NCBI GenBank assembly: GCA_025057155.1
Contig: JANWYD010000015.1
Span: forward strand, 28,337 to 92,336
Direction of reading: 5' to 3'
Source: Chloroflexaceae bacterium
GTDB lineage: Bacteria; Chloroflexota; Chloroflexia; Chloroflexales; Chloroflexaceae
Length of the DNA stretch: 64,000 bases
Below are positions 1-12,148 of this stretch, one piece after another. Made by a program: the position numbers and the translations under genes. Every line of letters begins with the position of its first letter. Within the stretch, counting starts at the first letter, position 1. The notes under the pieces are model-generated. The model was given only the letters and a program-made list of their open reading frames with translations, did not search any database and was not told the DNA's origin.

Positions 1-230
1 GCCACCCGCGCCGTATGCCACTCCGCCAGCAGTTCGGCCACTTCCGCCCGGCGCTCCGCCTGCGTGCGCGCCCGCTCCGCGCGCGCCGTCGCCGCCGCCG
101 CCACCCGCGCCGTATGCCACTCCGCCAGCAGTTCGGCCACTTCCGCCCGGCGCTCCGCCTGCGTGCGCGCCCGCTCGATGCGCCCGGTTGCTGCCTCCGC
201 CAGGCGCGCTGCATGCAACTCCGCCAGCAG
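1..230 (-). repeat. 99-bp tandem coding repeat of gvpC
   Basis: Two complete 99-bp units (230-132 and 131-33) and the start of a third (32-1) encode the 33-residue GvpC repeats. The DNA starting at 1 and at 100 is identical for at least 78 bases, so the repeats are recent duplications or are kept alike by recombination. The first unit has diverged in its first half. Confidence 0.9.
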
Positions 231-682: not shown

Positions 683-898
683 CTAGGCCGGCGCCGCTGC
701 CGAAGCCGTCAGGCCCACGGCCTCAGCATACTTGAGGTACGTATCAACGCCGGCGATCACCACGCGGGCCTCAATGGCCAGCAACTCGATACCGACCAGG
801 GAGACGCGGGCCCAGGCGTCAATCACCACGCCCTTGTCCAGAATGCGATCCACGACTTCGGCCAGGCTGCTCGACGCATTCACCTTCTCGACGGCCAT
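683..898 (-). CDS. gvpA: Gas vesicle major structural protein GvpA
   Basis: The 71-residue protein starts [20 protein letters not shown] and contains the hallmark GvpA core ([20 protein letters not shown], then [22 protein letters not shown]). GvpA forms the ribs of the hydrophobic, gas-permeable vesicle wall that gives buoyancy; the length is normal for the family. The reading frame extends upstream to 952, but the ATG at 898-896 sits just behind AGGAGGAAC and gives the conserved N terminus, so it is chosen. It lies between an OmpR-type regulator (upstream) and a gvpC-like gene (downstream), all on one strand. A promoter with direct repeats is proposed at 953-1017. Confidence 0.97.
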
Positions 899-952
899 AA
901 GTTCCTCCTGTGCTAGAACGTACACAACATGGGTGCGGAACCCGCAATCCAT

Positions 953-1017
953 TAGATACGAAAAGCTCGCGTGTGGGTGTTAGCCCTTCGCGAGCGTTCA
1001 GTTAGGGATGTGTTAGG
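953..1017 (-). promoter_or_regulatory. Putative gvpA promoter with 11-bp direct-repeat operator
   Basis: On the minus strand the half-sites CCTAACACATC (1017-1007) and CCTAACTGAAC (1006-996) are adjacent. After one 11-bp turn without a match, GCTAACACCCA (984-974) lies in the same phase. A possible -10, TATCTA, is at 958-953 with no good -35. The layout matches that at 4060-4125 upstream of the B12-sensor gene. Direct repeats with an 11-bp period suit OmpR/PhoB-family regulators, and such a gene is adjacent. The third site overlaps a terminator-like hairpin, so it could be fortuitous. Confidence 0.55.
961..995 (-). terminator. Terminator-like hairpin after the response regulator gene
   Basis: Read on the minus strand, GCTCGCG (995-989) pairs with CGCGAGC (972-966), with an inner GGG/CCC pairing, and TTTT follows (965-962). 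This resembles a Rho-independent terminator about 40 bases after the regulator stop codon. It would separate the two-component operon from gvpA and overlaps the proposed gvpA operator. Confidence 0.55.
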
Positions 1018-1032
1018 CGTCGGGCGCTGTTG

Positions 1033-1782
1033 CTAGCGTGCGGCAGCCTGGTTACCCTGCGCTTTTGCCGGCTGCTCGGATAAACCATTCCGCAGAATAT
1101 ACCCGTGGCGCGGCACGGTGCAGAGGTAGGCAGGCCGGGCGGGATCGCGTTCGATCTTGTTGCGCAGGTTCATCACGTGCCAGCGCACCAGCCCTGGTTC
1201 GGCGGCATCGGGCGCATATCCCCACACGTGCCGCAATAATTGTTCGCTAGAGTAGACCTCATCGGGGTGGCGCATCAGAAAGTTGAGCAACTCGAACTCG
1301 GCCGGGGTAAGCTGGCGCACCTCGTCGTCAATCTGTACGGTTCGGGTTTGCAGGTTCAGGCTCAGGGCGCCGACGCGGAGCACGCCGGTTTCGGCCAGGT
1401 TGGGCGCTGACCGGGCGGTGCGGCGCAGCAGGGCATGCACGCGCGCCTTCAGCTCACGGAGATCGAAGGGCTTAACCAGGTAATCATCGCCGCCCACCTC
1501 GAACCCGCGCAGGCGATCCTCAATCATATCCCGTCCCGTCAGGAAGAGCACCGGCACGTCGGCCAGGCCTGGATCGCGGCGCAGGGCGCGGCAGAGGGTG
1601 AGGCCGTCCATGTGCGGCATAGAGACATCGAGGATGATCAGATCCGGCATAATGTAGCGACAGAGTTCCAGGGCCTCGTTGCCGTCATAAGCGACCCTGA
1701 GCGTGTATCCCTCCTGGCGCAGAGCCTGACCGACGGCCCAGACAAGGTCGGCTTCATCGTCAACGATAAGTATCTGGCGCAT
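1033..1782 (-). CDS. OmpR/PhoB-family response regulator
   Basis: The 249-residue protein has an N-terminal receiver domain (about 1-120) with acidic residues D8 and D9, phospho-acceptor D52 in LIILDVSMPHMDG and the conserved Lys in YLVKPFD. A C-terminal winged-helix DNA-binding domain follows (about 145-235; VRQLTPAEFELLNFL, then a typical RNKIERDP...VPRHGYIL end). It should be phosphorylated by the kinase encoded just upstream and bind direct repeats as a dimer. Of several in-frame ATGs, the one at 1782 lies 6 bases behind AAGGAG and is chosen. Its neighbours suggest control of gvpA and perhaps of the divergent B12-sensor cassette, which is inference. Confidence 0.92.
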   Translation of the reverse strand: MRQILIVDDEADLVWAVGQALRQEGYTLRVAYDGNEALELCRYIMPDLIILDVSMPHMDGLTLCRALRRDPGLADVPVLFLTGRDMIEDRLRGFEVGGDDYLVKPFDLRELKARVHALLRRTARSAPNLAETGVLRVGALSLNLQTRTVQIDDEVRQLTPAEFELLNFLMRHPDEVYSSEQLLRHVWGYAPDAAEPGLVRWHVMNLRNKIERDPARPAYLCTVPRHGYILRNGLSEQPAKAQGNQAAAR

Positions 1783-1863
1783 GATCATCTCCTTGCACGC
1801 ATCGGAATACGCAGCCGAGAATATCACGCAGCAGGCGGGATTGCGAGAGAGTTCCTCCTGTCA

Positions 1864-3843
1864 TTACACATCGGCGGGCAGACGGATGGTGAAACAGGCG
1901 CCGCGGCCAGGCTGGCTCTCGACGCTGATGTGACCATGATGCTGCTGCACGATGCTATAGCTGATTGACAGGCCCAGGCCGGTGCCCATCCCGACGGGTC
2001 GCGTGGTGAAGAACGGGTCAAAAATGCGCGACAGATGCTCGGGAGCGATGCCGACGCCGGTATCACACACCAGGATTTCGATCTGCTCGCCAGCGCTGCG
2101 GGTTGTCACCGTAATGCGCCCGCCCTGAGGCATCGCCGCCATCGCATTGAGGATCAGGTTGGTAAAGACCTGCTGGAGCAGCACCGGATTGCCGTAGATC
2201 ATCGGCACATCAGGACCGAACGCGCGAACCAGGTCAACGTTTGCCATCAGAAGCTGGTTGGCGAGCAGGGCAAAGGTCTCCTCCAGCACGTCGTGGACAT
2301 TCAGCAACCGGTAGCGGTCCTGAGGCGGACGGGCGAACTTCAGCAGGTTCTCGATAATCAGCGCCGCGCGCCTGGTGGAAGCGACGATGTGCTGGAGGCA
2401 CTGCCGGGCCAGTTCTGGAGCATCGTGGTACTCTTCAAGCAACTGCGCGTTGGTCTGGATAATCGCCAGCGGATTACGCAATTCGTGGGCGATGCCGCCC
2501 GCCATGACCCCCAGGGAGGCCATCTTGGCCGCCTGCACCACCTGCGCTTCGAGGCGTCGCCGCTCGGTGAGATCGCGACCTACGGCAATGATGCCCACTA
2601 CCTTGCCCGCGTCGTCGCGCATGGCCGAACAATTCCAGGCCACAGTGATTGGATGCTGCGGATCGGCGGCGAGCAGGCTGATCTCGGTTTCCTTGACCTG
2701 CTCACCCGCCGCGAGACGCTTGAGCATGTCCTGCACCGCCCAGTGTTGATCAGGCGCGCAGAGCTTGACGAACGGCTCGCCGCAAACCTGCTCGGCTCGC
2801 AAGCCTGAGACCTGCTCGGCAGCCGGGTTCCAGGTAATGATCTTCCCATCCGGGGTCAGCGAGACTACCAGATCGCTGGCCTGATTGACCACGCCGGCAA
2901 GGTGCCGCTCGACGCGGCGCACCTCCTCGCCCAGCTTCTCGCGTTCGGTCACGTCTTCAATCAAGAGCAAGACATGATCAACGTCGGCGCCCTGTTTGAG
3001 CGGAACGAGGCGGTAGTAATAATTCCGTTTGCCCAGGCCAGGAGCGGTAAAAGCCACCTTTCCTCCATCGAACGCCGCTCCACTGGCAAACACTTCTTTG
3101 ACGCGCTCTTCCAGGCGCATATACTGCAACAGCACCGCGGGAAACAGATGCTTGATGGTGCGTCCAATGGTCTGGACGGGATTGCGCCGCAGTTTGAGGA
3201 AGAAGTTCTGATTGGCCAGAACGACCTGGAGACGCCGGTTGAGCACGACCAGGGAGATCGGCAGACTCTCCAGGATGCGCTCCATGAACCGTTCACGATG
3301 GGCCAGTTCGGCGTACAGTTGCGCTGTTTTGAGCGCAAGGGCCTGCCGCTCGGCCACCAGGGCGGCGAACCACAGATCCTCCTCGGTGAATGGCGGCTCA
3401 CCCTCCTTGCGGGCCAGGTTCAAGACGCCGTAGAGTTCGCCATCGCTGATCATCGGCACGCAGAGGGCCGAACCGATGGCGTCGCGGCGCATATGCCCGA
3501 CCAGGTGGGCGGGGGCAGGACGGTCTGGCGAGAGCAGGAGCGGCTGGCGGTGCATAGCGACCCACCCGGCGATGCCTTCTCCGAGGGCGACACGGGTAGT
3601 TTGAACGATCGTTTCGGAGAGACCGATGGCCTCGGTGATCTGCAGGTGGTGCCGTTCAGGGTCAAAGGTCATTAGCGAGGCCCAGGCGGCGCGGGTGGCC
3701 TCGGCGACCACGCCGAGCAACGCGCGCCCCAGGCTGTTCGGGCTGCGCCGGTCCTGCAGCACATGCTGCCACAGGTCGAACAGCGAGGCCAGGGTTGGCT
3801 GCCAGATGCGGGCGGTATCGGGCGAAATAACCGGTTGCTGCAT
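1864..3843 (-). CDS. Sensor histidine kinase, GAF-PAS-PAS-HisKA-HATPase
   Basis: The 659-residue soluble kinase has no obvious membrane segment. In order it shows a GAF domain (about 45-190), two PAS domains (about 200-310 and 320-440), a HisKA domain with phospho-acceptor H453 in [15 protein letters not shown], and a HATPase domain with DTGVGI, a following FDPFFTTRP and GTGLGLS. The H-box is of the NtrB type. It should sense a cytoplasmic signal and phosphorylate the OmpR-type regulator that follows after 81 bases on the same strand. The ligand cannot be read from the sequence. The ATG at 3843 gives a complete GAF domain. Confidence 0.93.
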
Positions 3844-4059
3844 ACGGGTGAGAGAACCAGCGCCGCTAAGCTGTTAATTCACCACGCTTTGCACACGCAA
3901 AACCCGATTTTGTCAATGAAACATATTGTTGGAAAGCAAATATTTTACGACACGAAATGACTATACTTCATCGTATTGGCCGTAGTATACAAGATACCGG
4001 TTACGAGAGTCCAGATAACTACAAACCATCGTATGTTATGCAACCTCCACGTTGCGAAT

Positions 4060-4125
4060 CCTAACGCATCCCTAACGCAACGCTTGTGACACCCTAATAG
4101 CCTCGTTCCAACGGCGTGCCATACT
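4060..4125 (+). promoter_or_regulatory. Putative promoter with 11-bp direct-repeat operator upstream of the B12-sensor gene
   Basis: In the 384-base divergent gap 3844-4227, half-sites CCTAACGCATC (4060-4070) and CCTAACGCAAC (4071-4081) are adjacent, one turn is skipped, and CCTAATAGCCT follows at 4093-4103. A possible -10, CATACT, lies at 4120-4125 and the -35 position is poor, as expected for an activator-dependent promoter. The first 22 bases match the gvpA operator at 19 positions. The gap also holds an A+T-rich stretch (3895-4020) that may carry the kinase promoter. No small gene was seen in it. Confidence 0.55.
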
Positions 4126-4227: not shown

Positions 4228-6387
4228 ATGACTACTCCTGCAACATCCGCCGCGCGCGGGTCCGGGCCATCCCTGATGAAACTGGTGCAGCATATTCCCG
4301 AGACGCGCCGCTGGCGCCGCCAGGCTGACGCTCTGATCGTCATCGGCCGGCAATTCGAGCTGATGGCGCAGGAGCGCGGAGTCGAGGCGCACGTCGCGCT
4401 GGGCACGCTGCGTTTCTCGCTCTTTCATCTGCACCAGGGACGCATCGCGCAACTGGCGCCTCTGTGCCGGAGCGTGACAGTGTATGGCGAGGCCGATGTT
4501 GAGCCGCCAAAGATCCCCCATGTGACCTTTGTGCCGATGCCGGCAGGATCGCCGTTAAGCCAGGAATGGTTTCTGATCGTTGACAGTCCGGTATTCTGGG
4601 CCTCGATGATCAGCCGGGTCAGTGTGGATCGCGCCAATAGCGCAGCGCGACGTTACCAGTTCGAGGGGGTGCTGACAGCCGAGGAGCGGGTGGTCAGCCG
4701 CGCCAGTCTGCTCCTCAGCCTGGCGCGGGGCCAGGCGCCTCCCGAGGCGCCTCAGCGCGATCCGGTGAGTAATGCGGCCCGCTGGGCCAGGATCGCCTAC
4801 GCCCTGGCAAGCCACTCGGAAGCGCAGCGCCTCAAGCTGGTTGATTGCCTCGGCGAGCTGCCCGAATTGCAGTCGCTGCTGGCCGAGTCCTCACTGGAGT
4901 ACGACCAGATGGTGCCGCTGGCGATGGACGCCCTGCGCCGCTTCTGTGGCACGGTAGGCGAGTTGCTCTATCGCTACACGGACGGTTCCCTGGTGCCGGT
5001 TGCCTGGAGCGCGGCCAGTCCGCCGCCGCCGCACTCGCTGACCGAAGGACTGGTAGGGCAGGCTTTTCAGAAGCGCCAGCTCGCTATGCAGGCGCTGGTG
5101 CCCACCGATCCCGAGTATGCCCTTCTCGGCGGGGCCGCTTCGGCGCTTGCCATCCCGATCAGCGCCCGCGGCCAGCCCTGGGGCGTGCTGCTGATCGGCC
5201 AGGCGGAACCCGATCCGCACGAGGCGGAAGGGCTGGCACGGGCGGTGGGCCTGGCAACGTTGCTGGAACAGTTAATTGATTCTAGCGGGGAGAGCGCCGG
5301 CCAGCCTGCGCCGCGCGCGCCAGCGGCCCGGAAGACGGCCTTCGGCGCCACAGCCGCCGCCGCTCCCTTCGGCGCCGCGCCCTTCGGCCCCGGCGCCCCC
5401 GCCCCCGCTGCTGCCGCGCCCTTCGGCCCCGGCACCCCCGCCCCCACCGCCGCCCCCTTTGCGAATGGCGGTTTGAACTTGCCCGGAGCGGAGATCTTCG
5501 GACCGGGCAGAGCGGCGGAAGGATTCGCGGCGGCGCCCGCTCCGGGGTCGCCAGCGGCCGCGCCATCGCTGGCGTTCAGCGCGATCTCCGCTGCGAGCGC
5601 ACCGCTGCCAGGGCCATCGGCTCCGTCGTTTGGCCTGCCGACATGGTTGCCTCCAGGAGCTGCAGAAGCGGCGACTGGCGGCGTGGCTGCTGGCCCGGCG
5701 GTTGTGACGCCCGGGCCTCAGGCGGGATCGCTGCCGCCCAGCCAGGGCTTCCCGATCTACCAGCGGCGCCTGCTGGGCGCGCTGGTGGCATTTGACCAGA
5801 ATACTGCCGAGGAGGTCTGGCGCGAAGCCGGGGCGCTTTACCCGGCGGAGGCGCTGTGCACCGAGTTGCTGATGCCGGTGCAGGTGGCGATCGGCGAGGG
5901 CTGGCACCGGGGCGAAGTCTCGGTAGCTATGGAGCATTTCGCCAGCCGCTTCGTAGAGAGCAAGTTGCACAATCTGTTTACCGCCCACCGGGATAATCCC
6001 CACGGGCCGCTGGCGGTCATCGGCTGCGCCCAGGGCGAACTGCACGAGCTTGGCCCGCTTACCGTCGCGCTGTTCTTGAAATGGGCCGGATTTCGGGTAA
6101 ACTACCTGGGGCAAACGGTGCCAAACTCAACCCTGGAATCGCTGGTGCGCACCCTGCGCCCCCAGATCCTGGGGCTATCGGCAACCACGGTAGAAGCGGC
6201 GCACCATCTAACCGAGGCCGGACAGATCCTCAGCCGGATCGAACCGCCACGTCCGCTGTTCATCTTTGGCGGCATGGCCTTCTTTGAGCGGCCCGATCTG
6301 CGGGCGCGCGTCCAGGGAGGCCAGTACATGGACGGCGATCCGCGGAGCATCGCGCGCCGTCTGGCGGCTCAGTTTATCAGGGGATAA
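4228..6387 (+). CDS. DICT-GAF-B12 sensor protein with CarH-type photosensory domain
   Basis: The 719-residue protein has a DICT sensory domain (about 25-175, with VTVYGEADVEPP and EWFLIVDSP), a GAF-like domain (about 200-350) and an Ala/Gly/Pro-rich linker (about 355-505) with PFGPG repeats. It ends in a MerR/CarH-type cobalamin module: a helical bundle and a Rossmann domain. The bundle has W559-H560 and E569-H570 in GWHRGEVSVAMEH, and the Rossmann domain has H606 in GELHELG. In CarH, the equivalent Trp, Glu and two His residues contact adenosylcobalamin or form the bis-His adduct after light, and the ExHxxG His is the lower ligand. The DNA-binding domain of CarH is absent, so output must go through partners. 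GAGGAAGAGG precedes the ATG. It is the first gene of the plus-strand cassette. Confidence 0.88.
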   Translation: MTTPATSAARGSGPSLMKLVQHIPETRRWRRQADALIVIGRQFELMAQERGVEAHVALGTLRFSLFHLHQGRIAQLAPLCRSVTVYGEADVEPPKIPHVTFVPMPAGSPLSQEWFLIVDSPVFWASMISRVSVDRANSAARRYQFEGVLTAEERVVSRASLLLSLARGQAPPEAPQRDPVSNAARWARIAYALASHSEAQRLKLVDCLGELPELQSLLAESSLEYDQMVPLAMDALRRFCGTVGELLYRYTDGSLVPVAWSAASPPPPHSLTEGLVGQAFQKRQLAMQALVPTDPEYALLGGAASALAIPISARGQPWGVLLIGQAEPDPHEAEGLARAVGLATLLEQLIDSSGESAGQPAPRAPAARKTAFGATAAAAPFGAAPFGPGAPAPAAAAPFGPGTPAPTAAPFANGGLNLPGAEIFGPGRAAEGFAAAPAPGSPAAAPSLAFSAISAASAPLPGPSAPSFGLPTWLPPGAAEAATGGVAAGPAVVTPGPQAGSLPPSQGFPIYQRRLLGALVAFDQNTAEEVWREAGALYPAEALCTELLMPVQVAIGEGWHRGEVSVAMEHFASRFVESKLHNLFTAHRDNPHGPLAVIGCAQGELHELGPLTVALFLKWAGFRVNYLGQTVPNSTLESLVRTLRPQILGLSATTVEAAHHLTEAGQILSRIEPPRPLFIFGGMAFFERPDLRARVQGGQYMDGDPRSIARRLAAQFIRG

Positions 6388-6392
6388 GCGCC

Positions 6393-7550
6393 ATGCCACT
6401 CGCTCTTTACCTTGACAGCACGCCCCGGGCGGGCATGGGCGTCGCGGAAGCGGATCAGGGAAAGGCTATGGACAGCTTCGAAATTGTGCAACGGCTTGAA
6501 GATCAGCGCCTGGCGATCATCGAGGACACCATCAATCAGGCGATGCGGGAACCGTTCTGGGTGCAACGGTATGGCGAAGGGATCCACGTGCGCTTGAAAC
6601 TGGACCTGGATCGCAATTTTGGGGTGTTGATCCAGAGTATTCGCTACCGTTCGCCAATGATTTTCGAGGATCACACCCGCTGGCGGCGCGACCAGATCCG
6701 GGGCTTCGGCTGCTCGACCGGTCATATCCGCGAGATGTACGGCAACCTGTGGCGCGCCATTACCAGGCATGTGCCGGAGCAGTGGCATTCGTTCATTTTC
6801 GGATACATGCAAACAGCGCTGGAAAAGCTGGCCTTTGCCGACGCTACGGCACGGGCGGTCGCCGAGCAGCAGAACCTCCTTGCCGAAGATCTGGCCAGGG
6901 CGACCTTTGACCGGCACTGGCACTGGCAGGCGGCCTATCGCGCCGACGGGCGCGCGCGGCTGGTGTACGAATGCTGGTATCTGATTGACTATCTGGTTGA
7001 CGCCCTGGGCGTGCGCAGCGCCACCACGCTGGGCCAGCACGTCCAATGGCAACGTGATGCGTGGATCAGGCGCGGCCTGTGCACCGGCCACATGCAGCAC
7101 GTCCTCTGGCTGCTGGGCGAAGCGCTGTCGGCGCGGCTCGCCCCGGGGCAGGCGCAGGAGGCCCGGAACGCGCTGGCGGAGGTCGAGGGGGCGCTGGCCT
7201 ATCAACGTGAGAGTTGCCAGGCGCTCCAGTCAATACAGGACGAATTGATTGAGCAGACGGCGGAACGGCTGATGGCGGCGGGCGTCGCCCCCGGCGGCGA
7301 GGAAACAACGACGGAAGTAAGCTGGTACATCGCCTACCTGCTTGACAGCATGGCTGCCGGAGCTGCCGATCCACTTGTCAACTACACCCGCTGGATGCAG
7401 CACTGGCTTGCTCACCAGGGGTTGCCCGACAGCCCGCTACGGCTGAGCTACGAGGCCCTGGGGGAAGCCATCACCCGTCTGGCGCCAGACTATGCCGCCC
7501 ATGAGGCGTTAGCCGTGCTCCAGGTCGCTCACCGGGCGCTCTCCACCTGA
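6393..7550 (+). CDS. Unrecognised helical protein with three repeats
   Basis: The family is not recognised. The 385-residue protein is predicted helical, without membrane segments, and rich in Trp, His and Arg. Three units of about 70 residues can be aligned by eye (about 80-150, 195-265, 312-383). They share a Tyr-rich first helix (YLIDYLVD; YIAYLLDS), a TRWRRDQIRGFG / VQWQRDAWIRRG / TRWMQHWLAHQG core and an LW..L..A...L.P end. It starts 5 bases after the B12-sensor stop, so the two are probably co-translated and it may be that protein's partner. AGGGG precedes the first ATG. The ATG at 6468, behind AGGGAAAGG, is a credible shorter start. Confidence 0.7.
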   Translation: MPLALYLDSTPRAGMGVAEADQGKAMDSFEIVQRLEDQRLAIIEDTINQAMREPFWVQRYGEGIHVRLKLDLDRNFGVLIQSIRYRSPMIFEDHTRWRRDQIRGFGCSTGHIREMYGNLWRAITRHVPEQWHSFIFGYMQTALEKLAFADATARAVAEQQNLLAEDLARATFDRHWHWQAAYRADGRARLVYECWYLIDYLVDALGVRSATTLGQHVQWQRDAWIRRGLCTGHMQHVLWLLGEALSARLAPGQAQEARNALAEVEGALAYQRESCQALQSIQDELIEQTAERLMAAGVAPGGEETTTEVSWYIAYLLDSMAAGAADPLVNYTRWMQHWLAHQGLPDSPLRLSYEALGEAITRLAPDYAAHEALAVLQVAHRALST

Positions 7551-7592: not shown

Positions 7593-7800
7593 TCATCTGG
7601 AGGGCCGCGGGAAGGCTGCGCCTCCTCTCAACTCCCGTTCCGCCCGCGACGGCAGACCCGACCCGGCATCGCTGGGGGGCGCGCCCGCCGCGGGCGGAAC
7701 TACCGGATCGCGGAACGTTAACCCTGCGGGCTGCGTCCGAACGGCAACCCGGAAGGTCGCGCAGCGCAACGATGTCTTAACCTGTGAAGGAGAGATGTTC

Positions 7801-9906
7801 ATGATCAGTTCTGCGGCGTCCGTTTCGCTTCCAGCTTTGCTGGGAGTTTCGGCCAGCGCCGGATGCCTGCTCAGTCTCGATCAGGTGCGGCATCTGGCGA
7901 TGCTGGCAGTACAGCGCCGCCCGGCGGATCTGCATGCGCGGATTATCTTCGGCGGGCCGCTTGGCGATCTGGAAGAGGGTACGCTGTGGGGCGATCCGTG
8001 GCAGAACGCGCCGTTTTTGATTATTGCCGGCGAGCAGGGGGCCCTGGCCCTGGTGTCGCGCGCCGAGGGAGAGCGCTTTCGCTGCGTGATGCTGAGCGAC
8101 CCGGAGCGGGTGGACCACGCGGTGATGGCGCTCTCCCAGTTCGGCGACGAGACGCTGAGCCTGCCGGAACTGGCCGCGCCCGAGCCGCAACGCGCCTTTG
8201 TGGGAACACTGGTTGCGGCGCTGGTGGCCGATCCGCGCTTGAACGCGATCGATCTGCCCGCGCTGATGCCCGCCGAGCGGCGCTGGATCGAGCTGGCGCG
8301 GGTCTCTGGCCGCTGCCCCGACCTGCCCGCCCTCTTTGCCACTCCCGACCTGCGCCAGGCGCTCCACGAGCAAGGGGTGGATCGCGCGCTGATCGGGACG
8401 TTGAGCGCCGACCGGCGCCAGATGCGGGTGCTCGCTGCGATAGGCGGCAAAGGACCGGCGACGATCGGGTTGCAGGGACGTCTGGTTGACACGGTGCTGC
8501 GCAGCAGACGCCCCGGCAGCACCGCCAGCGCCGCCGAGAGCGGCCTGGACGCCGAGGGGCAACGCTGGCTGGGAACCTCGACGCTGACGGCGATCCCCCT
8601 GCAACGGGACGGCACTCTCTGGGGGCTGCTGCTGGCGGCGAGCCAGCGCCCGCTGGCGAACGCCGCGCGGGCAGCGTTGCACGGTCTGGGCGCGCTCATC
8701 AGCGCCACGCACGGGATCGCCGCGCCAACCGTCGGCGAGGCCGCTTCGCCAGCTTCTGCCGCCCGCTCCCCCCGACCGGGCGCCGCGGCGCCCGCTCCGC
8801 GAACCGGTGAGGTCGGGCCGATGCGCGCGCGCCGCCAGGCGGCGCTGGCTGGCGATATCGGCGCATTGTTCGAGCGCCTGACCGATGCGGTGGTGCTGGT
8901 GGACGGCCAGGGCCGGCTGGTGAGTTACACCTCCGCGGCGGCGGCGGCCCTGGGCCTGGGGCAAGCGGCGCGCGGACACAGCCTGGTCGAGAGCGGCGCG
9001 TCGTGCCTGACGCCACTGCTGAGCGAGGCGCTGATGGCCGATGGGCCAGTGGAGGGAACGGTGCAGTTGCCGCGGGGCGGGCAGGCAAACGTCACGGTGC
9101 GCGGCATTGACGATGCCCTCTGGAGCTTCCTCATCTTCCCCGCCGGCGAGCCGAAGAGCGCCCCGCCGGCGCCGCAGCCGAAGCAGCCGGCCGCCCTGAG
9201 CGAACGCGAGCAGCAAGAGACCTTCCTGAGCAACTTTTCGCGCGTCATTCAGGTTCCATTACGGGAGTTGCGCACCCTGATCACCAGCGTGCCGGCAGCA
9301 GGCGAACTCAACGAGCAACAGTCGCGCCTGATCGGGCAGGTGGTGCGGCTGAACAGCGAGTTAACAATGCTGGTGAACGACCTGCTCTCGCTAGGGCAGA
9401 TCCGCCTTCAGGCCCAGGAAGTCGGCGCGCCATTGCGCCTCGATCTGCTGATCGAAGCCGCCGTCGGCCTGCAATACGCCGAGTTCGGGCGACGGGGCCA
9501 GCACGTGACAGTGGACCTGGCGCCCGGCCTGCCGCGGGTGATCGGCTCTGAAGAAGGGCTGGGCCGGGCGATCAATGCCTTGATTGACAATGCGATCAAG
9601 TACAGCCCCGGCGGGGCGCACATCCGCGTCGCCGCGCGCCACGAAGCCGGCAATGTTCTGGTCATGGTCGAAGATAGCGGGTATGGACTGAGCGAAGAGG
9701 AGGCGGCGCAGGTCTTTGAACCCTTCTACCGGGCCGAAAGCGCCGAACGCGCGGGCGTATCGGGCCGAGGTCTGGGGCTGACAATCGCCAAAGCAGTGAT
9801 CGAGCAACACGGCGGCCAGATCTGGGTTGACAGCCGTCCCGAGGGCGGCAGCACCTTCACGTTCCGGCTGCCCTGCGCTGATACAGACGCCGCCGGGGGA
9901 GCGTAA
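7801..9906 (+). CDS. Histidine-kinase homologue without the phospho-histidine
   Basis: The protein of 701 residues has an N-terminal DICT-like region (about 25-160), a GAF-like region (about 170-300), a PAS domain (about 350-440), a helical segment where HisKA belongs, and a good HATPase domain (NALIDNAIKYSP, DSGYGL, FEPFYRA, GRGLGLTIAK). In the H-box, where SHELRTPL is expected, the sequence reads SRVIQVPL, so Arg481 replaces the phospho-acceptor His. It probably binds ATP but cannot autophosphorylate in the usual way; it may be a conformational sensor like the kinase-like subunit of actinobacterial conservons. The ATG at 7801 is 8 bases behind AAGGAG; an in-frame ATG at 7795 is too close to it. 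Confidence 0.87.
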   Translation: MISSAASVSLPALLGVSASAGCLLSLDQVRHLAMLAVQRRPADLHARIIFGGPLGDLEEGTLWGDPWQNAPFLIIAGEQGALALVSRAEGERFRCVMLSDPERVDHAVMALSQFGDETLSLPELAAPEPQRAFVGTLVAALVADPRLNAIDLPALMPAERRWIELARVSGRCPDLPALFATPDLRQALHEQGVDRALIGTLSADRRQMRVLAAIGGKGPATIGLQGRLVDTVLRSRRPGSTASAAESGLDAEGQRWLGTSTLTAIPLQRDGTLWGLLLAASQRPLANAARAALHGLGALISATHGIAAPTVGEAASPASAARSPRPGAAAPAPRTGEVGPMRARRQAALAGDIGALFERLTDAVVLVDGQGRLVSYTSAAAAALGLGQAARGHSLVESGASCLTPLLSEALMADGPVEGTVQLPRGGQANVTVRGIDDALWSFLIFPAGEPKSAPPAPQPKQPAALSEREQQETFLSNFSRVIQVPLRELRTLITSVPAAGELNEQQSRLIGQVVRLNSELTMLVNDLLSLGQIRLQAQEVGAPLRLDLLIEAAVGLQYAEFGRRGQHVTVDLAPGLPRVIGSEEGLGRAINALIDNAIKYSPGGAHIRVAARHEAGNVLVMVEDSGYGLSEEEAAQVFEPFYRAESAERAGVSGRGLGLTIAKAVIEQHGGQIWVDSRPEGGSTFTFRLPCADTDAAGGA

Positions 9907-9977
9907 TGCTGCGAATGAGGGTTTCAGATCTCTGGGCGGCCCTGCCTGACAGGCGCTCCTCCGCCGCGCAGAGTACA

Positions 9978-9995
9978 GTGTGGAGGTGTGGAGGT
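9978..9995 (+). repeat. Short GTGTGGAG repeat
   Basis: Two copies of GTGTGGAGG lie in the 260-base gap between the kinase homologue and the receiver/Roadblock gene. The same motif is expanded at 14865-14918. The reading frame of the next gene is open through this gap, but the sequence is not conserved-looking protein. Confidence 0.6.
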
Positions 9996-10166
9996 AAAGG
10001 GGCGAGGGCCAGACCGCCTGGCGAGATTCGAGATTCAAGGACGCCTGATCCAGCGCCAGGCGAGCGGCTGGGAACAGCGCGACCCCAACCTCACCCTGAC
10101 GCGCTCCGTCCAATCTGCGATCCAGCCTTTGCGATTAACAATCGCGCGAAGAGGGGATGTACGGGG

Positions 10167-11060
10167 ATGAAGTACCGGGTGCTGATCGTTCAGGCGAATC
10201 CGGCGCTGAGCCAGAGTTGGGAACAGGCGCTCACCGCTGCAGGGGCCGACCACGGCTTGCAGGTCCATGTGCAGAGCGTGCGTTCGGTCGCTGCCGGCCA
10301 ACTTGTGGCCGGACGCCAGCCCTTCGATCTGGTCATTGCCAGTCTACAGGTCGAGAGCCTCAGTCTCATCCGCCGGCTTCGCAAACGATGGCCCAACCTC
10401 CGCGCCCTGTTGCTCCACCCGCCCGACGCGAGCGCGGTCAGCCTGCGCGAAGCGGAACTGGCCGGTTGCAGCCTCGCGCCGCAGCCGGCGTCGGCCAGAG
10501 ATCTGGTTGCGGCGGTAGGCAAGGCCCTCGAGCTGCCGTTAGGGATCGGGCCGGCGCCGCAGCCCGACACTGATCGCCCGGCGGCGACGATGGCCGATGT
10601 GCTGCTGCTCCTTGATATGTTGCGGCGGCAGACGCAGGCGCAATTTGTGATCTACACCGATAATCTCGGCAACACCGTGGCCCAGCAGGGGGATGCCGCG
10701 AACCTGGAGGTGGACGCCATCACCTCGTTGATTGCCAGCAGTTCAATCAACATTGCCGAACTAGGACGGGCGCTGGGCGACCAGCAGGTCGGCTGCCTGA
10801 TTGTGCTGGAAGGGGTCCAATTTGATATTTATGCGACCAACGTGGGCAGCCAGCACCTCCTTGCCCTTGTGTTCGCCAAAGAGTTCGTGGAACCGCGGCT
10901 GGGCTATATCTGGCTGCAACTCAAGCGCAGCGCCCAGCAACTCAAGGGGATGCGTCTGGTGAAAGGAACGCCGGGCGAAGTCATCGCCGCCGAACTCAGC
11001 GCCTCCCTGAACCGCGAATTCGAGCGCCTGTTTGGCGACACGTTACAGCATCAAGAATGA
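10167..11060 (+). CDS. Receiver-like domain fused to Roadblock/LC7
   Basis: The 297-residue protein starts MKYRVLIVQANP. Residues 1-120 have the alternating pattern of a response-regulator receiver, but the acidic pair is replaced by QAN and the phospho-Asp position is Ser59 (D54LVIAS59). It is therefore a pseudo-receiver. The C-terminal half (about 140-295) is a Roadblock/LC7 domain (QFVIYTDNLGNTVAQQG and SSINIAELGRALGD), the family that regulates MglA-like GTPases. The frame is open back to 9906, but ATG 10167 follows GAGGGG and starts the receiver fold, so it is chosen. It lies next to a second Roadblock gene and an MglA gene and probably links the kinase homologue to the GTPase. Confidence 0.87.
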   Translation: MKYRVLIVQANPALSQSWEQALTAAGADHGLQVHVQSVRSVAAGQLVAGRQPFDLVIASLQVESLSLIRRLRKRWPNLRALLLHPPDASAVSLREAELAGCSLAPQPASARDLVAAVGKALELPLGIGPAPQPDTDRPAATMADVLLLLDMLRRQTQAQFVIYTDNLGNTVAQQGDAANLEVDAITSLIASSSINIAELGRALGDQQVGCLIVLEGVQFDIYATNVGSQHLLALVFAKEFVEPRLGYIWLQLKRSAQQLKGMRLVKGTPGEVIAAELSASLNREFERLFGDTLQHQE

Positions 11061-11074
11061 CCAGGAGCGCCAGC

Positions 11075-11554
11075 ATGTCACGTTCTTCTATCGTTCTGTC
11101 TCCAGCCCATCTGGCGGCTATCCAGAACTTGCTCGCCCAATTCGGCCAGCAGGCCGATGTACGGTGCGCATTTCTGGGCGACCTGAGCGGCCAGGAACTG
11201 GCAAGCTGGGAAGGTCGCGGGCAGCTCGATGTGTCGAGCGTCGCCGCGCTGGCCGCGGGCGATCTCATGGCCACGATGGAGATCGCGCAACTGCTGGGGG
11301 GTAAGCGCACCTGTAATCTGATTGTCCAGGAACATGACGATATGACCATCCTCGTCTCGCGGGTTGGCGAGGGGCTGTTCCTGTTGCTGGCCACAGCCAA
11401 AGACGTGCCCCTGGGATGGTCGCGACTGGCAATCAAACGTGCAGCGGAACGCATCCTGGCGATCGTCGGCAAGGCCGCCATGACGCCGCCGCCCTCGGCT
11501 GTAAACGACGATTTTGTGCGCAATTTCGCCGCCCACCTTGATAATATCTGGTAG
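11075..11554 (+). CDS. Roadblock/LC7 protein (MglB-like)
   Basis: This small Roadblock/LC7-domain protein (159 residues) carries the typical core QNLLAQFGQQADVRCAFLGD, LASWEGRGQLD and LAALAAGDLMAT. Proteins of this family dimerise and act as GTPase-activating or scaffolding partners of small GTPases. ATG 11075 is 7 bases behind AGGAG. An upstream ATG at 11057 overlaps the stop of the previous gene (ATGA) and could give six more residues. The MglA-like gene starts 9 bases downstream, so the two are expected to be made together. Confidence 0.87.
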   Translation: MSRSSIVLSPAHLAAIQNLLAQFGQQADVRCAFLGDLSGQELASWEGRGQLDVSSVAALAAGDLMATMEIAQLLGGKRTCNLIVQEHDDMTILVSRVGEGLFLLLATAKDVPLGWSRLAIKRAAERILAIVGKAAMTPPPSAVNDDFVRNFAAHLDNIW

Positions 11555-11563
11555 GAGGAATGT

Positions 11564-12148
11564 ATGTTTATCAACTGGGCGCTGGGCGAAATCAATTTGA
11601 AGATTGTATACTACGGCGCGGCATTGAGCGGCAAGACTACTAATTTGCAGTTCATCTATGCGCGCACGCCAGCTAATTTGCGCGGACGGCTTATCTCGTT
11701 GAAGACCCAGCAGGATCGCACGCTGCTGTTTGATTTTCTGCAACTGGAGATCGGGAAGGTTGCCAACCTTAGACCAAAGTTCAAGCTCTACACTGTGCCC
11801 GGTCAGGTCTACTACGCCGCCAGCCGGCGCCTGATCCTCCAGGGCACCGACGGCGTCGTTTTTGTGGTCGACTCGCAGGCTGGACGCATGTCGGAAAACG
11901 AGGAGTCCTGGTACACTATGGAACAGCACCTGATCGAACTGGGCCATGACCTCAACACGTTTCCGATTGTGGTCCAGTTCAACAAGCGCGACCTGCCGCA
12001 CGCCCTGCCCGTCCAGGAGTTGCGCCGGCGCCTGCCGATTGAAGGGCGCCCCTGCTTCGAGGCGTCGGCGATCAAAGGCTACGGGGTCTTCGATACGCTG
12101 AAAGCGAGCATGAACAGCGTGGTGGCAGCCGTGCGACGCGCCGTGTAG
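11564..12148 (+). CDS. MglA-like small Ras-type GTPase
   Basis: The 194-residue cytoplasmic GTPase has a P-loop GAALSGKTT with K24, the MglA-type G3 motif TVPGQ (77-81, Thr in place of the usual Asp) and the G4 motif NKRD (140-143). A helical C terminus completes a normal length for the family. MglA-type GTPases set cell polarity and control motility or other spatial processes together with Roadblock proteins. Here it follows two Roadblock genes directly and precedes a DUF4388 gene. Gliding motility of filamentous Chloroflexota is one possible target, and control of buoyancy or of phototaxis are others. The target is inference. A GGAGGA ribosome site precedes the ATG. Confidence 0.94.
   Translation: MFINWALGEINLKIVYYGAALSGKTTNLQFIYARTPANLRGRLISLKTQQDRTLLFDFLQLEIGKVANLRPKFKLYTVPGQVYYAASRRLILQGTDGVVFVVDSQAGRMSENEESWYTMEQHLIELGHDLNTFPIVVQFNKRDLPHALPVQELRRRLPIEGRPCFEASAIKGYGVFDTLKASMNSVVAAVRRAV

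Follow-up and report, generated by a model that had tools for sequence, protein, structure and literature searches.

A four-unit direct-repeat operator shared by gvpA and a probable B12 light-sensor operon in Chloroflexaceae, and its putative OmpR-type reader

Operators of OmpR/PhoB-family response regulators, such as the Pho box, typically consist of tandem direct repeats of about 11 bp; the operators of HrcA (CIRCE) and HspR are inverted repeats, and that of CtsR is a heptad repeat. For the regulated gas-vesicle genes of Serratia ATCC 39006, the LacI-family RbsR and the IclR-family XyrR are reportedly named as regulators. The locus considered here lies in a window of 64,000 nt, the whole stretch of DNA analysed, from a Chloroflexaceae bacterium (GCA_025057155.1, contig JANWYD010000015.1, positions 28,337-92,336 of the forward strand; source genome G000, 5.13 Mb in 189 contigs). 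It comprises the gas-vesicle gene gvpA, an operon headed by a gene for a probable vitamin-B12 light sensor (hereafter the B12 gene), and an array of direct repeats upstream of each. Both arrays are probably operators of the OmpR-type regulator encoded between them, which would control a two-target regulon through a variant of the heat-shock operator of the phylum. Gas vesicles are documented in relatives of this bacterium in two studies (PMC6180586, PMC7332563). The features on which the argument turns are as follows.

683-898, minus strand: gvpA, gas vesicle structural protein of 71 aa (Pfam PF00741, E=2e-16)
951-956, minus strand: putative -10 of gvpA, TCTAAT (TGTAAT in congeners), 22 nt past the fourth CTAAC, positioned by alignment
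979-1016, minus strand: gvpA operator of four 11-bp direct-repeat units, CTAACACATCC CTAACTGAACG CTCGCGAAGGG CTAAC..., with C before units 1 and 2 (pattern scans, alignment, shuffle test); the units lie at 1016-1006, 1005-995, 994-984 and 983-973
1033-1782, minus strand: OmpR/PhoB-family response regulator (Response_reg, Trans_reg_C) with recognition helix LVRWHVMNLR, the proposed reader of the arrays
1864-3843, minus strand: histidine kinase (Pfam: GAF, PAS, HisKA, HATPase), lying upstream of the regulator and read in the same direction
3984-4013, minus strand: promoter-like site for the kinase-regulator pair, TGGACT-18-TATACT, a consensus match only
4061-4098, plus strand: operator of the B12 operon, CTAACGCATCC CTAACGCAACG CTTGTGACACC CTAAT (pattern scans, alignment, shuffle test)
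4120-4125, plus strand: putative -10 of the B12 operon, CATACT, positioned by alignment

The arrays lie where a sequence-only reading of this stretch had placed them, at 1016-979 upstream of gvpA and at 4061-4098 upstream of the B12 gene, and their leading two units agree at 19 of 22 bases when counted by eye. The pattern CTAACN6CTAAC has just two matches in the 64 kb, one before gvpA (1016-1001, minus strand) and one before the B12 gene (4061-4076, plus strand), against a mean of 0.02 in 100 shuffles, none of which had two matches. Alignment with relatives resolves each array into four 11-bp units of the form CTAAC, CTAAC, CTTGCG-like and CTAAC/T. The 11-bp turn that had earlier been described as skipped is in fact the third unit, kept among relatives as CTTGCG, CTCGCG or CTTGTG, and the skipped-turn reading was rejected on this ground. 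The terminator-like hairpin thought to overlap the third gvpA site was not recovered either, as a terminator scan found none at the array; the gvpA array carries a CTCGCG...CGCGAG inverted repeat, which was not seen by eye in the other aligned arrays. A whole-genome scan, which had been proposed as a check, gave a divided result: the two-unit form CTAAYN6CTAAY occurs at 8 places in the source genome versus 18 for the reversed control and is thus no rarer than the control, and the four-unit form with up to three mismatches occurs at 2 places versus 1, but the four-unit form with looser third and fourth units and up to two mismatches yields 4 places versus 0.

The equal distance to the -10 claimed for the two promoters is borne out once the hexamers are placed by alignment with relatives. 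At both, the best mean -10 match lies 22 nt after the first five bases of the fourth unit (4.5/6 over 23 gvpA arrays and 4.0/6 over 11 B12 arrays), the window's own B12 promoter having an offset of 21-22 nt. Head-to-tail units with a period of about 11 bp, a position just upstream of the promoter core and an OmpR-type regulator coded alongside are all found at operators of the OmpR/PhoB family; the arrays differ from the Pho box type in having four units, the third of them diverged, and in having gvpA and the B12 operon as targets. As direct repeats of CTAAC with an 11-bp period, they would also differ from the HrcA/CIRCE, HspR and CtsR operators.

The search was extended to 41 genomes of the family with the pattern CTAACN6CTAACN6CTTGCGN5CTAAC at up to three mismatches, which gave 47 places versus 14 for the same pattern reversed; all 20 places with at most one mismatch precede gvpA or the B12 gene. 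Genes of the gvpA type occur in 26 of these genomes, and in 25 gvpA is close enough for the array to be judged. At least two in-register units precede gvpA in 19 of the 25, and 14 of these 19 also pass the four-unit scan; the array-bearing relatives include Oscillochloris, Ca. Viridilinea and Chloroflexales. The B12 gene is preceded by the array in 11 of the 22 genomes with an ortholog (genera g1, g5 and g12), so that the expectation of like arrays at the orthologous promoters holds for most gvpA genes and for half of the B12 genes. Three genomes in which the regulator does not lie beside gvpA (G009, G015 and G026) retain the gvpA array. In two of these, G015 and G026, the kinase-regulator pair stands on a contig of its own while gvpA and the B12 operon both keep their arrays; no array was found at the kinase-regulator locus of either, and relaxed scanning for two units upstream of the kinase gave nothing there.

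The regulator at 1033-1782, whose presence between the two arrays was correctly noted from the sequence, matches the receiver domain PF00072 (E=5e-30) and the winged-helix Trans_reg_C domain PF00486 (E=1e-20). Orthologs are encoded in 20 of the 41 family genomes (best match at least 249 bits, 50-100% identity), the next paralogs reaching at most 179 bits, except for a partial second copy in G025 (215 bits). Of the 20 genomes with a regulator ortholog, 19 carry the gvpA array, versus none of the five assessable gvpA genomes without one (p=1e-4); counted per genus, the figures are 7/8 versus 0/4 (p=0.01). G020 was left out of this count since none of its PF00741 matches (contigs C727 and C641) exceeds 60 bits in BLAST to the GvpA of the window; with it the table reads 19/20 versus 0/6. 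The stretch VRWHxxNLR occurs in all 22 ortholog sequences read from 20 array-bearing genomes, and the regulator of G011, the single genome that has the regulator but no gvpA array, reads VRWHIKKLR. Outside the family, gvpA, the array and a regulator ortholog (53-63% identity) share one contig in G067, a metagenome-assembled genome (MAG) of the Anaerolineae, and in G074, where the ortholog is cut by the contig end. This co-occurrence ties the gvpA array to the regulator in a suggestive manner, while falling short of a clean test.

Several observations weigh against a single local regulon. The family genomes are related, so that the p-values for regulator and array overstate the association, and of the five genomes lacking the regulator, three (G010, G013 and G028) are 81-88% complete, so that an absence may reflect a gap. 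Only two units are retained at gvpA in G007, G022 and G029. The other 11 of the 22 genomes with a B12 gene lack an array before it, as judged by the whole-genome scan at up to three mismatches and by 14 stretches read at up to four, and the second B12 copies of G015 and G026 lack one too. Finally, similar sites stand before heat-shock genes in genomes without the regulator, so that a similar code must have at least one further reader, which could act here as well. The earlier proposal of one regulon for buoyancy and the B12 cassette accordingly stands in part: the shared operator and its tie to the OmpR-type regulator are supported by the phylogenetic profile, the conserved recognition helix and the separate contigs of G015 and G026, but the B12 branch is confined to 11 of 22 genomes, and the operator proves to be a variant of one that Chloroflexota carry before heat-shock genes, where another regulator presumably reads it.

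The wider distribution of the operator became apparent from an exact scan for CTAACN6CTAACN6CTYGYRN5CTAAY across 84,980 species, a set that possibly does not include the window's own genome. All 23 stretches found (28 matches) belong to Chloroflexota and precede gvpA, the B12 gene or a chaperone gene: 14 are at gvpA or the B12 gene in the window's family, one is at gvpA in an Anaerolineae MAG and eight are at chaperone genes (clpB 2, dnaK 2, hsp20 3, groES 1). Eight genomes outside the family gave 21 places versus 1 for the control (hsp20 9, dnaK 2, clpB 2, groES 2, gvpA 1, peptidase-type 3, two others), and a looser pattern with at most one mismatch, run on 400 genomes of the phylum, gave 71 places in 46 genomes versus 11 places in 5 genomes. 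Among 30 loci read from the latter scan, 21 precede hsp20 (8), groES/groEL (4), htpG (2) or a Cys-rich gene (7), four a DoxX-like gene (one of them cut off, with the same site) and one gvpA, and four could not be placed. Within the genus, 20 places in five genomes versus none for the control comprise dnaK 5, groEL 4, gvpA 3, B12 3, clpB 1, hsp20 1, htpG 1 and two others. The source genome itself has weaker related arrays before dnaK, groEL, clpB and a dnaJ-type gene, all gene families confirmed by hidden Markov model (HMM); the dnaJ-type and clpB sites are weak and were counted only through the gene behind them, clpB also through a congener. Genes behind the arrays were named from N-termini read by eye, and of ten checked by HMM nine belong to the ClpB, GroEL, DnaJ-type, DnaK, Hsp20, GroES or HtpG families; the tenth, a Cys-rich gene (L260), has no NCBIfam or Pfam match. 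The phylum thus seems to use a CTAAC switch preceded by T for its heat-shock genes, loci L133, L134, L135 and L275 being among those with such an array before hsp20, dnaK, groES/groEL, clpB or htpG.

This distribution raises the possibility that gvpA and the B12 operon simply belong to the general heat-shock regulon, with the heat-shock regulator binding both arrays and the local kinase-regulator pair acting elsewhere. The four-unit architecture common to hsp20, dnaK, groES/groEL, clpB and htpG in many Chloroflexota speaks for it, as do the weaker forms in the source genome, but the two classes of site differ in two respects. At gvpA and the B12 gene, C precedes units 1 and 2 in 60 of 68 positions; at heat-shock genes none of 46 positions has C and 39 have T (p=6e-24, with no correction for relatedness). 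The 23 aligned heat-shock arrays were picked by hand from those found, and 16 further ones have C in 0 of 32 positions. In heat-shock promoters the fourth unit and the -10 are 10 nt apart (3.6/6 over the 23 arrays), 12 nt less than at the gvp/B12 promoters, whose arrays thus sit about one turn farther out. With C for the most part and 22 nt, the gvp/B12 sites fall outside a heat-shock class defined by T before CTAAC and a -10 about 10 nt on, which argues for two readers. Counting bases would place the third unit CTTGCG of the heat-shock promoters at the -35 position, and the two regulons seem to be told apart by a single base before CTAAC and roughly one turn of the helix. Moreover, G005, G018 and G028, which have gvpA and heat-shock arrays without the local regulator, have no gvpA array. 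Membership of the heat-shock regulon is therefore considered unlikely.

A reader of the heat-shock sites was sought among OmpR paralogs in nine genomes with a DNA-binding-domain query (top matches only, 30 loci), and no candidate was established. Among these top matches, the gvpA-less genomes G068 and G072 have partly similar helices (VVRWHINNIR and LVRMHIKNLR), and G001, G017, G031, G070 and G071 showed none; the best matches of the regulator in G363, G205, G344 and G326 reach at most 184 bits. A weak array (three mismatches) at locus L202 of G065 precedes a gene for a small helix-turn-helix-like protein, a possible regulator candidate. The short Cys-rich protein, CANCDIxxxWxP...YCCxGCAAGGPCxCDYS, is encoded behind the array at L250, L252, L254, L255, L259, L260 and L263, with groES next in four of them, and the DoxX-like membrane protein gene follows the array at L239-L242 and L141 in genus g9, read as Chloroflexus.

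Very improbable is the reading in which the divergent kinase-regulator operon controls itself through the plus-strand array, which would then lie close to the B12 gene by accident. The array does sit in the interval from which the kinase and B12 genes diverge, 48 bp behind the promoter-like site of the kinase, but its orientation and -10 offset fit the B12 side, and in G015 and G026 it goes with the B12 gene and not with the kinase-regulator pair, a placement for which autoregulation was rejected as its main role. That the sites are alike through local copying of a promoter segment, with no shared regulator today, appears the least probable of all, since some spacer bases do agree between both arrays of one genome but register and -10 offset are kept over three genera in which most of the surrounding sequence, judged by eye, differs.

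The operon behind the plus-strand array encodes the following proteins.

4228-6387, plus strand: B12 gene; GAF, B12-binding_2 and B12-binding domains, a sub-threshold DICT match, W-x9-EH and ELHELG motifs (Pfam, motif check)
6393-7550, plus strand: all-helical protein; residues 1-123 of the predicted model have the bilin-binding globin fold of phycobiliproteins and photocobilin
7795-9906, plus strand: second histidine-kinase-like protein (HATPase_c)
9906-11060, plus strand: conserved cassette protein, no Pfam match
11057-11554, plus strand: Roadblock/LC7 protein (PF03259, E=2.3e-5)
11564-12148, plus strand: small GTPase, Arf-like (PF00025, E=2e-8)

Orthologs of the B12 gene, taken as best matches of at least 306 bits (some partial or split over contigs, the remaining genomes reaching at most 152 bits), occur in 22 of the 26 gas-vesicle genomes versus none of the 15 others of the family (p=6e-8), or per genus in 11/13 versus 0/5 (p=0.0025). 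The B12 module of the protein resembles that of TtCarH (PDB 5c8a, E=1.7e-19), and the W-x9-EH and ExHxxG motifs, which we take to mark CarH-type B12 photoreceptors, are present in all seven orthologs checked; a vitamin-B12 light sensor is the probable function. Unlike TtCarH, the protein has a GAF domain and a sub-threshold DICT match, and a Pfam scan (E<=0.001) found no MerR-type or other DNA-binding domain in it, so that by domain composition the protein itself is no CarH-type repressor. At three loci (L048, L052 and L070), in genomes with neither regulator nor array, the Roadblock/GTPase cassette genes adjoin gvpA, joined in L052 and L070 by the B12 gene. On the other side of gvpA, downstream, window positions 1-230 hold a 99-bp tandem repeat of 2.3 copies with 90% matches.

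The open reading frame at 6393-7550 has no Pfam match, and an AlphaFold2 model built with 16 orthologs is all-helical (pLDDT 93.8) and reads as three similar units. Residues 1-123 of the model match phycobilisome chains (VIA Z 17.4) and photocobilin 8j2x (Z 15.7), with photocobilin 8j2w matching over a different range (VIA Z 16.0); in helical models, Z scores up to about 14 may arise by chance, and the Foldseek E-values are near 0.01. A sequence profile reaches phycobiliproteins at E of about 0.01, ranked behind designed helical proteins, and the model is best regarded as a lead from fold, not a proven bilin protein. Photocobilins (PDB 8j2w and 8j2x), as described in PMC10979010, carry a B12 module and a bilin-binding globin domain on a single chain. 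The B12 protein and its neighbour appear to offer the same pair, a B12 module and a globin-like domain of bilin-binding fold, but on separate adjacent genes (4228-6387 and 6393-7550) and with a globin-like protein about three times as long, and they may possibly constitute a split photocobilin.

If the local regulator is indeed the reader of both arrays, the kinase at 1864-3843, with its GAF and PAS domains, probably phosphorylates its neighbour, which most likely binds the four 11-bp units as head-to-tail dimers. Acting from about 22 nt before the -10, where the last unit would adjoin the -35 region, the regulator would activate gvpA and the operon of B12, bilin-globin-like, kinase, roadblock and GTPase genes together, joining buoyancy and the sensor cassette in one small regulon, with light as the presumed signal. 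The T-preceded heat-shock operator would be read by some other regulator. A wider scenario can be put forward tentatively, in which an 11-bp CTAAC code spans the phylum and is served at heat-shock genes by an OmpR-type activator, the gvp genes use a C-preceded dialect shifted by about one turn with a kinase-regulator pair of their own, and in three genera this dialect also drives a split photocobilin-like sensor with roadblock and GTPase proteins, giving light-linked buoyancy.

Among the papers listed by literature searches, none dealt with this operator, with gas-vesicle regulators of Chloroflexota or with a phylum-level heat-shock operator, which is weak evidence of novelty. PMC7332563 assumes that the gvp genes are of Alphaproteobacteria origin and absent from the other Chloroflexota of its data set, but G067 and G074, outside the family, do carry gvp genes. 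The array may mark the wiring of an acquired organelle into a native operator code. For the control of gas vesicles in phototrophic Chloroflexota, the finding offers a regulator and a DNA site that are concrete and can be tested, and it would tie buoyancy to a probable light sensor of the B12, perhaps the B12/bilin, kind. It also exposes what seems to be a phylum-wide heat-shock operator, and with it a probable case of regulators sharing one operator code.

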